From Herpetosiphon geysericola (GTDB lineage: Bacteria; Chloroflexota; Chloroflexia; Chloroflexales; Herpetosiphonaceae), in contig NZ_LGKP01000021.1 in NCBI RefSeq assembly GCF_001306135.1, forward strand, positions 248,001 through 312,000: a DNA stretch of 64,000 nt. The letters run 5' to 3'. The notes beneath the pieces are model-generated. The model saw only the letters and a list, made by a program, of their open reading frames with translations, had not been told where the DNA came from and ran no database searches. Of the stretch, positions 10,030-14,057 are shown one piece after another; the stretch's first letter is position 1, and every line of letters starts with the position of its first letter. The translations under genes and the position numbers were made by a program.

Positions 10030-11388
10030 CTAGATTAAATAGCGAATTAAGATTGTAGCTAAGCCAAGCAGGCAGCTATAGCCCGTTACATCGGTTACGG
10101 TGGTCACTATCACGCCCGAGGCCAAGGCTGGGTCAACCCGAAATAGCTTGAGGGTCAAGGGCACAACCGTGCCAGCAATCGCCGCCGAGACCAAATTCAG
10201 CAACATTGCACAGCCTGCAACCACGCCCAACATTGGCTTGCCCTGCCACAACCACCCAAGCAGGCCAATGGCGCTACCAAATGCTACACCATTGATAGCC
10301 CCAATGCCAACCTCGCGACCTAAGGCCCGAAATCCTTGGCCAGTTGCCACTTCACCCAACGCAATCGAACGCACAATCAAGGTCAGGGTCTGAATTCCTG
10401 CGTTACCGCCCATGCCCGCAATAATTGGCATAAATGGCACCAGCGCCGTTACTTTTTCGACCGTACCATCAAAGTTGCTCACCACCCAAGCCGCCAAAAT
10501 GGCCGTTGGCAAATTGACAAACAACCAAAATAAGCGCCGTCGCGATGAACGAAACAACGAATCTTCAACATCTTCGTCTTGTGGCAGGTTGGCCAACAAG
10601 TACATATCTTCGGTGGCTTCTTCTGCGATCACGTCGATAATATCGTCGGCAGTAACCGCGCCGACAATCCGCCGTTGCGCATCAACCACCGGCAAAGCCA
10701 ACAAATCGTAACGAGCAAGCAAGCGCGCACATTCTTCTTGGTCGGTTGCAACGCTGGCCGTAATCACGTTGCGATCCATAATGTCGCTGAGCTGGGTTTG
10801 GGCTGGCGCCATCACCAACGAGCGCAAACTGACCACCCCAACCAAGGCATCGTTGGCATCGACCACATACAAATAGTAGACCGACTCATCTTCTGGCTGC
10901 AAACCGCGCAGCAAATCGATTGCCTGTTGGGTGCTCAAGCGGTCGCGCAAGGTCACAACATGCGAGGTCATCAAACCGCCGGCACTCTCCTCGTCGTGCG
11001 CCATCAGTTGACGCACATCGTCGGAATCTTCTGGGTCCATGGCGGCCAAGGTGGCAGCAATGTGGGCTGGCTCTAACTCGACCAAGACATCAGCTGCATC
11101 ATCTGGCTCCATTTGCTCAAGCAAATCGGAAAGCTGATCACTGGTGAGGGTTTCGGCAAGCTCCACTTGCGAATCGGTATCAAGCTCAATTAAGACATCT
11201 GCGCCATGTTCAAGATTAAGCCGGGCAAACACTTCGTACAGCTCGTCGGATTCGAGTTCATCGAGGATGGCTGCTGCATCGGCAGCGTGTAGGTTGGCAA
11301 CCAGTTGACTTGCTTGGTCGATTGCGCCAGCATCGAGCGCAGCCCGCACGTCTTCTAAGGTTGGCCGAATATCGAGGATTTTGGTCAT
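10030..11388 (-). CDS. mgtE: Magnesium transporter MgtE
   Basis: A 452-residue protein with the full MgtE layout: an N-terminal superhelical domain (residues ~10-130, with LLEQMEPDDAADVLVEL), two CBS domains (~130-255; LMTSHVVTLRD and IMDRNVITAS), a connecting helix, and five membrane helices (~285-452) with the conserved GMGGNAGIQTLTLIVRSIALGE pore region. MgtE is a Mg2+ channel that the cytoplasmic domains close when Mg2+ is plentiful. GGAGG lies 6 bases before the ATG at 11388. The transcript leader contains a mini-ORF and a strong hairpin, suggesting a second layer of control. Confidence 0.95.
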   Translation of the reverse strand: MTKILDIRPTLEDVRAALDAGAIDQASQLVANLHAADAAAILDELESDELYEVFARLNLEHGADVLIELDTDSQVELAETLTSDQLSDLLEQMEPDDAADVLVELEPAHIAATLAAMDPEDSDDVRQLMAHDEESAGGLMTSHVVTLRDRLSTQQAIDLLRGLQPEDESVYYLYVVDANDALVGVVSLRSLVMAPAQTQLSDIMDRNVITASVATDQEECARLLARYDLLALPVVDAQRRIVGAVTADDIIDVIAEEATEDMYLLANLPQDEDVEDSLFRSSRRRLFWLFVNLPTAILAAWVVSNFDGTVEKVTALVPFMPIIAGMGGNAGIQTLTLIVRSIALGEVATGQGFRALGREVGIGAINGVAFGSAIGLLGWLWQGKPMLGVVAGCAMLLNLVSAAIAGTVVPLTLKLFRVDPALASGVIVTTVTDVTGYSCLLGLATILIRYLI

Positions 11389-11414
11389 CGGACACCTCCA
11401 TGTGGCAAACACAC

Positions 11415-11438
11415 AACGAGCGGGAATTCCCGCTCACT
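11415..11438 (-). promoter_or_regulatory. Hairpin in the mgtE leader, possible attenuator
   Basis: GAGCGGGAATTCCCGCTC (11418-11435) is a perfect palindrome; with two G-U pairs and one A-U the RNA stem reaches 10 bp around an AAUU loop. It begins 3 bases after the mini-ORF stop and ends 26 bases before the mgtE start. The following GTTGTGTGTTTG is only weakly T-rich, so it could be a poor terminator or could block or expose the ribosome site. Confidence 0.55.
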
Positions 11439-11441
11439 GGT

Positions 11442-11507
11442 CTAGCCAATCAGAGGTAATTCCGCTTGCTGTGGGTCATCTTCGGTTGTAGAACCATCAG
11501 TACTCAT
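11442..11507 (-). CDS. Mini-ORF upstream of mgtE (possible leader peptide)
   Basis: An ATG at 11507 opens a 21-codon frame on the mgtE strand that ends in TAG at 11442. The peptide is acidic and holds prolines: MSTDGSTTEDD, then PQQAELPLIG. The predicted start of transcription from the extended -10 box at 11517-11525 falls 2-5 bases before this ATG, so translation would have to be leaderless; no Shine-Dalgarno site exists. Acid/proline-rich leader peptides upstream of Mg2+ transporter genes (mgtL of enterobacteria) sense Mg2+ through ribosome stalling or destabilisation. The parallel is an inference; the frame could be chance. Confidence 0.4.
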   Translation of the reverse strand: MSTDGSTTEDDPQQAELPLIG

Positions 11508-11516
11508 ACGTCGGGC

Positions 11517-11525
11517 AGTATACCA
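11517..11525 (-). promoter_or_regulatory. mgtE promoter, extended -10
   Basis: Minus-strand TGG-TATACT, a TGn extended -10 element, lies 9 bases before the mini-ORF ATG. No good -35 box is found at 17 bases, as is usual for extended -10 promoters. Confidence 0.6.
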
Positions 11526-11826
11526 CGATTTATTTGGCTACTAGAGCGGCCCTCTGTCAGCAAGCAAACTCACCACATGGGTTATGACTTTGGTACTGTC
11601 TTAAGCACGCGAATGTACTACGTGACCTAGTGTACAATAGGCCATAGTAATTAAAGGCTTTAACCAATGCTTGGCTAAAAGCTAGGCTAGGCCATTTTTT
11701 TGGCCGCAATCAGTGGTATGAAGCCTGCTTTAGTTCAGTAAAGCTGCCAAGCCGAGCAGCTTAGGCGCTTGCATGGTAGGCTACAATACAGCCATGAGAA
11801 GAGCTGCGATCGCCGATGGACATTCA
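11526..11826. other. Intergenic region between mgtE and the diguanylate cyclase
   Basis: About 300 bases between divergent promoters. It holds two TACAAT words (near 11635 and 11782), the second followed by an ATG that opens an 11-codon frame (11794-11829), and a short GGCCA-T5-TGGCC palindrome near 11700. I see no convincing gene or known riboswitch; a GEMM (cyclic di-GMP) motif is not evident. Confidence 0.5.
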
Positions 11827-11856
11827 TAGACAAGCAGAAAATCAAACTGTTATAAT
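11827..11856 (+). promoter_or_regulatory. Promoter of the diguanylate cyclase
   Basis: TAGACA (11827-11832), an 18-base spacer and a perfect TATAAT (11851-11856). The predicted start is about 11863, only some 5 bases before the GTG at 11868. Confidence 0.7.
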
Positions 11857-11867
11857 AGGCCACAACG

Positions 11868-14057
11868 GTGTTTACTAATCGCACAAAACGACCTGGACGC
11901 GACATGACCAAGCGACGACCCGTGCTACGGCTTTCTTCGCGGCAACGAACTCACTTTCAAGCCAATCCTTTGCGAATTCGACGCATGATTACCGAGTTGC
12001 ATGCGCTCCACGAGATTCGCCATGCGATTAATCAAGCCTTGGATTTGGATACGGTGCTCGAGGAGATTTATAGTCAAACATCGCGATTAATGGATACCCG
12101 CCAGTTTTATTTGGCGTTATACTCGCCTGAGTTGCAATTGATCGAATTTGCCTTGGCGGTCGAAAACGGCCAACGGATGTCGTGGCCCTCACGCCCCTAT
12201 GCAGATGGCCTCACCGAATGGATTTTGCAGCATCGGCGACCGCTCCGAATTAACGACCATGATCACAATGCAACGGTTGCCCCGATTATTGTTGGCCAGC
12301 CAATGCAATCATTTTTAGGGGTTCCAATTGTGCTTGGCGAGCAGGTGCTTGGGGTCATTAGCGTTCAATCGGTCGAACGCGTTGAGGCCTATTCTTCCCA
12401 CGACGAACAAATTTTGAGCATGATCGCTGATCAAGCAGCAGTGGCAATCGCCCACGCCAAACGCTTTGCAGCGGTTGATCAACAGCTCCAAGCCCGCGTG
12501 GCTCAACTCGAAACCCTCGAAGCAACCATCCGCGATTTAAACGAAACCCTCGATGTGGATACGATTCTCAATCGCTTGCTCGCCCGCATTCAGCCAATCA
12601 TGCACGCTGATGCTGGCATGGTGTGTTTGCTCGATCCTGAGCAGCAGCGCTTGTATATTCGGGCGATTCAGGGCTATCCAGCTGAGGTTCGGCGCTTTCA
12701 ATTCGAAGGCTGGCCGATTGATCGTGGGATTGCTGGCTTAGTTGCCCGTACTGGACAGCCCGATTGGACTGCTGATATTCGTAATTCTGGCTATTATGTT
12801 AATTCACGACCAACCACATTAAGCCAAATGACAGTGCCAATTGTGCATAGTGGCAAGGTTTTAGGCGTGATGATTTTGGAAAGTGATCGAGTTGGTACAT
12901 TTAATCAGGATACAACCCGTTTTGTTAGCCAAATTGCTGATCATGCGGCGCTTTCGATTCATAATGCGCATATTCATCAACAAGCGGTTGAGCAACAAGC
13001 CTTGTTGGCCCAACGATCACAACAACTCAATGAAGTGTTACGGATTAGCCAAGCATTAAGCGCAAATCTCAATTTAAATGATTTGCTGCCAGAAATTGTG
13101 CGTGCAATTCAAGCCAGCTTAGGCTTTAATATCGCCTTGCTCAGTTTAGTCGATCAAGAGCGACCAAGTTTTATGCGGCGGCGAGCAGTGGCGGGCGTGC
13201 CTGATGAGCGTTGGTTTGAATTACGTGATCAATTAGTGCCAATTGATTGGTATCGCAGCGTGATGCGCGAGGAATTTCGCATTAGTCGCTCATATTATAT
13301 TCCACACAGCCATACCAGTTATACTGCAATTTGGGGCAACAGCGATGATACCTATCGCGCTGATTTGGGCGAGCGTCGGCCACATGAATGGCATCAAGAT
13401 GATGCGCTCTTCGTGCCATTGTACGATTCAGATAATAATTTAATTAGTATTCTCTCAGTTGATGATCCGCGCGATCGGCGCAAACCTTCGTTTGAATCAG
13501 TGCAAGTGCTCGAAATTTTTGCAACTCAAGCAGCAATTGCAATTGAAAATGCCCATCTATATACGATTACGCAGCAATTGGCCATCACCGATGGCTTGAC
13601 TGGTTTATTTAATCAACGCCATTTTATCACAATGCTTGATCGTGAAGTTGCCTTAGCCTATCGTTACTCCTATCCATTATCATTATTGGCTTTGGATATT
13701 GATTATTTTAAGCAATATAACGATAACTATGGCCATTTGGTTGGAAATGTGCTGTTACGTGATTTTGCGCGCTTGGTTTGTGATAATGTGCGCGATGTTG
13801 ATATTGTTTCGCGCAATGGCGGCGAAGAATTTACCATCATCCTGCCAAAAACAGACCAAGAAGGCGCGGTGTTATTGGCCGAACGCCTGCGCACCTGCAC
13901 TGCTGAGCACCTTTTTGGCCAAGGCCATATTACGGTCAGCATCGGCGTGGCCACCCTCAACAACAATTGGGATGCGCATACCCTGCACGACCAAGCCGAC
14001 CAAGCCTTGTATCGGGCAAAAAACTCCGGACGTAATCTGGTTATCAGCGTCCCATAA
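11868..14057 (+). CDS. Triple-GAF diguanylate cyclase (GGDEF)
   Basis: A 729-residue protein with three GAF sensor domains (roughly residues 45-195, 205-365 and 395-555) and a C-terminal GGDEF domain (~565-727). The active-site loop is RNGGEEF at ~650, an active variant, and the metal/substrate segment ITDGLTGLFNQRHF is intact, so it should make cyclic di-GMP from two GTP. No RxxD inhibitory site is seen directly before the GGEEF. No signal peptide or membrane helix, so a cytoplasmic sensor. The GTG at 11868 has no ribosome site and would be leaderless; an ATG at 11904 is the alternative start, also without a clear site. Confidence 0.9.
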   Translation: MFTNRTKRPGRDMTKRRPVLRLSSRQRTHFQANPLRIRRMITELHALHEIRHAINQALDLDTVLEEIYSQTSRLMDTRQFYLALYSPELQLIEFALAVENGQRMSWPSRPYADGLTEWILQHRRPLRINDHDHNATVAPIIVGQPMQSFLGVPIVLGEQVLGVISVQSVERVEAYSSHDEQILSMIADQAAVAIAHAKRFAAVDQQLQARVAQLETLEATIRDLNETLDVDTILNRLLARIQPIMHADAGMVCLLDPEQQRLYIRAIQGYPAEVRRFQFEGWPIDRGIAGLVARTGQPDWTADIRNSGYYVNSRPTTLSQMTVPIVHSGKVLGVMILESDRVGTFNQDTTRFVSQIADHAALSIHNAHIHQQAVEQQALLAQRSQQLNEVLRISQALSANLNLNDLLPEIVRAIQASLGFNIALLSLVDQERPSFMRRRAVAGVPDERWFELRDQLVPIDWYRSVMREEFRISRSYYIPHSHTSYTAIWGNSDDTYRADLGERRPHEWHQDDALFVPLYDSDNNLISILSVDDPRDRRKPSFESVQVLEIFATQAAIAIENAHLYTITQQLAITDGLTGLFNQRHFITMLDREVALAYRYSYPLSLLALDIDYFKQYNDNYGHLVGNVLLRDFARLVCDNVRDVDIVSRNGGEEFTIILPKTDQEGAVLLAERLRTCTAEHLFGQGHITVSIGVATLNNNWDAHTLHDQADQALYRAKNSGRNLVISVP

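Follow-up and report, generated by a model that had tools for sequence, protein, structure and literature searches.

In Escherichia coli and Salmonella, the mgtL leader is a short ORF ahead of the Mg2+ transporter gene mgtA. Full translation of mgtL turns transcription off and early drop-off turns it on, and the early acidic residues Glu2 and Asp4 matter (PMC11282234). In E. coli the drop-off occurs at an EPDP stretch, and EttA counteracts it (PMC11282234). This control is Rho-dependent and lacks an intrinsic terminator (PMC11282234, PMC3641672). The mgtQ ORF of the Salmonella mgtCBRU operon is intergenic, has eight codons, with acidic residues among codons 2–5, and alternative stems, and acts on the translation of mgtB, for which its Asp2 and Glu5 are required (PMC8092293). 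Two further RNA leaders, one of them a candidate, lie upstream of mgtE. The M-box (ykoK) riboswitch, RF00380, is a 169-position aptamer without an ORF, while the structured mgtE motif, a candidate leader reported only from Thioalkalivibrio, contains the start codon of the gene (PMC11109978). In mycobacteria, a leaderless short ORF gates downstream expression in the polycysteine attenuators (Canestrari 2020, as cited in the review PMC9031893), where Cys codons sense cysteine.

Here we describe the leader of mgtE in Herpetosiphon geysericola. It resembles mgtL in having a short ORF in front of the gene for a Mg2+ transporter, in its early acidic residues and in its predicted polarity. Unlike mgtL, whose peptide has EPDP and Pro codons, it has no EPDP and no Pro run; it also has a start predicted to be near-leaderless, precedes mgtE, has a terminator-like hairpin and shows no sequence relation to mgtL that we could see. 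It shares a very short ORF with acidic early codons and, by prediction, alternative stems with mgtQ, a putatively leaderless ORF with the mycobacterial attenuators (it has no codon run of the kind noted there, and a Mg2+ transporter gene lies downstream), and a predicted terminator/antiterminator pair with trp-type attenuators. Judged by its sequence, it is a member of neither the mgtL family nor the M-box. A search of open-licence papers found no Chloroflexota leader of this kind, and the mgtE leader is real, conserved and undescribed in the literature searched. The proposed architecture of an attenuator has good support from sequence comparison and from folding. We consider it fairly probable that the leader is a ribosome-gated transcription attenuator with a leaderless ORF, which is on when ribosomes fail early. 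In Herpetosiphon and its relatives, ribosome progress along a tiny ORF at the start of the mgtE message would probably decide whether an RNA stop signal arises and whether MgtE is produced.

The window, the whole 64,000-nucleotide stretch of H. geysericola DNA that was analyzed, carries the leader and mgtE on its minus strand. An extended −10 promoter element, TGG-TATACT (TGG at 11525–11523, TATACT at 11522–11517), is followed after 9 nt by the ATG (11507–11505) of a 21-codon ORF (11507–11442, TAG at 11444–11442) encoding MSTDGSTTEDDPQQAELPLIG, in which Asp, Glu and Pro account for 7 of the 21 residues. As judged from the −10 element, transcription is predicted to start at about 11511–11509, 1–4 nt before the leader ATG, so that 70S ribosomes would be expected to enter at the 5' end, unaided by a Shine-Dalgarno sequence. 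The ORF is followed by an inverted repeat of 11 pairs, CAGTGAGCGGGAATTCCCGCTCGTTG (11439–11414), which forms a terminator-like hairpin. Its core, GAGCGGGAATTCCCGCTC (11435–11418), is a perfect 18-bp palindrome in Herpetosiphon. Directly 3' of the hairpin lies a conserved U/G-rich tail, TGTGTTTGCC (11404–11413), which reads TTTTGTGTG or TTTTCTTG in relatives. The Shine-Dalgarno sequence of mgtE, GGAGG (11395–11399), is kept across the aligned leaders, G006 excepted, and a quick look within the window found Shine-Dalgarno-like sites before most genes. The mgtE gene (10033–11388, ATG at 11388) encodes a full protein of 452 aa, with MgtE_N, two CBS stretches and the MgtE domain in a domain search, and the same mgtE occurs at 96–98% identity in H. 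giganteus, H. llansteffanensis and H. aurantiacus. The original prediction had named the extended −10, the 9-nt gap, the ATG, the 21-codon Asp/Glu/Pro-rich frame, its stop and the mgtE ribosome site, all of which read at the positions given; its hairpin is also present, with the size corrected from 10 bp to 9–11 pairs.

Two observations concern the DNA beside the leader. An intergenic block of about 80 nt at 11580–11670, carrying TACAATAGGCCAT on the plus strand, is nearly invariant in six Herpetosiphon species, with diverging flanks, and is unique in the genome. Perhaps it serves a divergent GAF-GGDEF gene as promoter or operator, or else encodes a small RNA. That gene has a TATAAT 11 nt upstream of its GTG start (11851–11868, plus strand) and, from this spacing, may itself be near-leaderless.

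All nine genomes of family f1, the family of Herpetosiphon, contain mgtE, which is also present across the order. The leader layout was found upstream of mgtE in all nine of them and in five of six in the sister family, f2. The f2 leaders comprise four complete ones and one cut by a contig end, giving 13 complete leaders over both families. Each of the 13 has TATACT or TACAAT 8–11 nt ahead of the leader ATG, and in f2 TACAAT is additionally preceded, at a distance of 17 nt, by TTGC(C/G)(A/G). We searched 82 genomes of the order with a covariance model built on ten leaders. In each of 14 genomes, all from f1 and f2, a single strong site was recovered, in every case in front of mgtE (E = 5e-27 to 3e-13). 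Ten of these 14 loci were inside the model, so their recovery was expected; the informative part is the absence of other matches, as the remaining ones in the 82 genomes had E values of 0.006 or worse. The single strong site per genome rules out a multi-copy genomic element. The exact start pattern likewise occurs nowhere except before mgtE, and inspection by eye of Chloroflexota mgtE orthologues outside f1 and f2 revealed no such leader. The original prediction had staked itself on conservation of the frame and hairpin among relatives, and in the alignment of f1 and f2 the frame start and the hairpin are both conserved. The f2 leaders L022–L025 carry two extra hairpins: CCGCA..TGCGG lies within the ORF, and GCAT..ATGC precedes the terminator. 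They also have a CTAG loop that could base-pair with the TAG stop codon of the leader ORF.

The ORF start reads M-[SN]-x-D-G across f1 and f2. Differences in codons 2–5 of the 13 leaders are distributed 64:29:15 over codon positions 3:2:1, and codon 4 encodes Asp in 12 of them through GAT/GAC changes. This third-position bias and the retention of Asp through synonymous changes speak for translation of the leader start. Either Asp4 or Glu5 is present in every leader (13/13); mechanisms of the mgtL/mgtQ type likewise have an acidic residue by codon 5.

The remainder of the peptide is not conserved between genera. The Herpetosiphon peptides (MSTDGSTTEDDPQQAELPLIG, MSTDGSTTEDNTKQAELPLIG, MSTDGSTTKDDTEQAELPLIG, MSIDGSTTKDDTEQAELPLIG and MSIDGSTTEDDTEQAELPLIG), those of other f1 genera (MSTDGPIIYSTT, MSTDGPTYQHRLIR and MSNGESQPIQLMA) and those of f2 (MNADGDPRQAWPWGQAITKQHRYPQQG, MSTDEHSSYRIRLRTG, MNADGHSSNRIQLRQG and MNADGHSSNRIRVRQD) include unrelated bodies without EDDP, namely PIIYSTT, PTYQHRLIR and HSSNRIQLRQG. 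In the f2 bodies, changes do not favor the third position (7:6:6). The original prediction took EDDP as the sensing element, which is not supported: codons 9, 11, 12 and 13 are those that change within Herpetosiphon, each at codon position 1, and EDDP is therefore not kept. Pro12 is replaced by Thr in four of the six species, E9K and D11N also occur, and the exact EDDP is limited to H. geysericola and its nearest relative, G003. Over the leaders of f1 and f2 there is no EPDP, and Pro is as unconserved as EDDP, so that a peptide of the mgtL family was not found. These substitutions, and the bodies of other genera that lack the stretch, weigh against a nascent-chain sensor like mgtL or mgtQ, in which EDDP would destabilize the ribosome at low Mg2+. 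Such a sensor has precedents in the mgtQ Asp2/Glu5 requirement (PMC8092293) and the drop-off at the EPDP of MgtL (PMC11282234), and two adjacent acidic residues do occur at codons 9–11 in all six Herpetosiphon species, just before the predicted switch codon 12. Overall, we regard it as unlikely. Over the 83 nt that run from codon 14 (CAAGCGGAATTACC...) up to the ATG of mgtE, the six species do not differ by a single substitution; codons 9–13 diverge, and divergence is strong in the spacer that precedes the promoter.

In an alignment of ten sequences, the hairpin was 98.9% paired, and four of its nine pairs were changed on both sides. The covariation score was 0.368; shuffles gave 0.157 (0/500), and the signal was lost when the partner was shifted. 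The outer pairs include G-U, and the loops are asymmetric in relatives. Covariation that includes G-U pairs fits an RNA rather than a DNA operator. An operator at GAGCGGGAATTCCCGCTC, bound by a regulator, would account for the perfect 18-bp palindrome in Herpetosiphon; considering the G-U outer pairs, the asymmetric loops and a location some 75 nt downstream of where transcription is predicted to begin, we find it highly improbable. Similarly, a new riboswitch that binds Mg2+ directly, with an incidental ORF, might be read from the additional hairpins in f2. However, no Rfam family matched the H. geysericola leader or the scanned f1 and f2 leader loci, and one hairpin and an ORF start, the parts common to all leaders, are too little for an aptamer, which makes this idea very unlikely as well. 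In our reading, the hairpin is a putative GC-rich terminator at which transcription would end.

The U tract is interrupted by a G in most leaders and is weak in G006. Such imperfect tracts, together with two leaders that lack a predicted antiterminator, would suit a hairpin that is a constitutive mRNA stabilizer or partial terminator, with the ORF as a by-product of a promoter near an ATG. This explanation is in conflict with the third-position bias of the first codons, the concordant position of the pairing element described below and the 83 nt unchanged across six species, and we consider it doubtful.

A candidate antiterminator element, AAGCGGAATTA (11457–11467, corresponding to leader nt 41–51), can pair with the 3' arm of the hairpin and with its loop side, and is free of substitutions in the six Herpetosiphon species. 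This segment, a newly found part of the leader, is proposed from folding, position concordance and conservation in the genus. In five lineages the best partner of the hairpin 3' arm had its midpoint at nt 42–51, a range of 8.5 nt as compared with 47 in shuffles (p = 0.0017). The free RNA of H. geysericola was predicted to form the antiterminator with a probability of 0.79; when the sequence upstream was shuffled, the value was 0.01 (p = 0.01). For six lineages together, the Fisher p value was 0.001 at 37 °C; at 30 °C, with the predicted 5' end and tail included, it was 0.0004. Several statistics were applied to the same set of leaders, and these partition-function and positional tests came after a first duplex test that was weak (single-sequence p values of 0.02–0.78). 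One antiterminator pair is kept by a T-A to C-G double change, from GCGGAATT/AATTCCCGC in Herpetosiphon to GCGGAATC/GATTCCCGC in G008. The main weakness of the antiterminator is that folding gave none in two of eight leaders (G009 and G059) and, in G007 and G018, gave it chiefly when the ribosome stood at certain codons (10–12 and 6–7, respectively). Translational control, in which the leader would pair with the Shine-Dalgarno sequence of mgtE, was rejected, as the complementarity noticed by eye in some species is not common to the others.

We masked the ribosome footprint codon by codon in equilibrium folding, which ignores co-transcriptional kinetics. With the A site at codons 2–9 of the H. 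geysericola leader, the predicted probabilities were 0.8 for the antiterminator and 0 for the terminator, and with the A site at codons 12–21 that of the terminator was 0.96–1.0. The leaders of G008, G006 and G015 gave the same polarity, with a switch at codons 9–12. Control like that of mgtL needs a switch by codon position, and to this extent the original prediction gains support from folding. Outside Herpetosiphon, the stop codon is at or adjoining the pairing element, so that a ribosome finishing the ORF would cover the element. The Herpetosiphon stop lies about 13 nt beyond the element, where the ribosome also masks the terminator 5' arm, and the outcome predicted for a ribosome at the stop varies between folding settings.

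The −10 element, ORF start, hairpin and pairing element are conserved features of the aligned sequences, and folding supports a terminator/antiterminator switch. In the mechanism that we propose, transcription would begin 1–4 nt ahead of the leader ORF, and the leader RNA would adopt either the GC-rich terminator hairpin or a mutually exclusive antiterminator formed by nt 41–51 and the hairpin 3' arm. A ribosome running through the ORF would cover nt 41–51, allowing the terminator to form and switching mgtE off. If no ribosome loads, or if it drops off or stalls within about the first nine codons, the antiterminator would hold and mgtE would be transcribed. Low cytosolic Mg2+ is the likely signal, and it would act via early ribosome failure at the acidic codon 4/5 or via poor 70S initiation. 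The start and end of transcription, the translation of the ORF and the role of Mg2+ are presumptive steps in this scheme.

Mg2+ is a plausible signal in view of the gene identity, the conserved early acidic residues and the absence of an M-box. RF00380 had no match in the window, the listed f1 genomes, G009 of f2 or the scanned f1 and f2 leader loci. The M-box is present in 30 of 301 sampled genomes of the phylum, and it lies directly upstream of mgtE in G033–G035 and L039, which belong to other families of the same order; it could answer the same signal. The notion of a Mg2+ leader replacing the M-box is partly supported, as regards the conserved ORF with its presumed near-leaderless start, the covarying hairpin, the position before mgtE and the missing M-box, but not as regards sensing by EDDP.

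The E. coli study stresses repeats of acidic residues (PMC11282234). Several leaders of f1 and f2 carry a single acidic residue, which makes an effect of Mg2+ on leaderless 70S initiation an equal candidate. Leaderless mRNAs are bound mainly by 70S ribosomes (PMC9031893), and low Mg2+ dissociates 70S (PMC10046523). If initiation were the sole sensor, low Mg2+ would reduce the start-competent 70S, leaving the leader untranslated and the antiterminator free to form. The near-leaderless start is kept in 13/13 leaders while the peptide body drifts, and the free RNA of H. geysericola is predicted to fold as the antiterminator. The conservation of Asp4 would be left unexplained, and we think it rather improbable that initiation is the whole answer. 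The broader proposal, that Mg2+ is sensed through leaderless 70S initiation or survival through the first acidic codons and read out by an intrinsic terminator/antiterminator, with an origin in Chloroflexota independent of mgtL, is offered tentatively, as a possibility short of even chances.

Family f4 has a different mgtE group, without the full N domain, and another conserved leader (L028–L037 and L158–L166, e.g., L029). This leader has a TATAC box, a Shine-Dalgarno-like AGGA in most cases and an ORF of mostly 28–29 codons that begins with M[ED]GSHQ or similar (one M-Q). Its codons 2–6 show a codon-position bias of 64:32:30, and the ORF is followed by a GC hairpin, which in six of seven scanned leaders has a T run after it. 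No Rfam family matched it above the cut-off. It looks like an independent leader-ORF attenuator and suggests more than one origin of this type of mgtE control within the order.

Ribosome-based sensing of Mg2+ via leader peptides is known mainly from enterobacteria, where it works through Rho or translation. The proposed sensor would stand where relatives use the M-box, and the M[ED]GSHQ leader of f4 would be an unrelated parallel case. If the proposal is true, Chloroflexota would hold a second, unrelated solution, pointing to early ribosome failure as a general Mg2+ signal, and the leader would provide a small natural system, of about 125 nt, in which to study how leaderless initiation, or early elongation, comes to depend on Mg2+.
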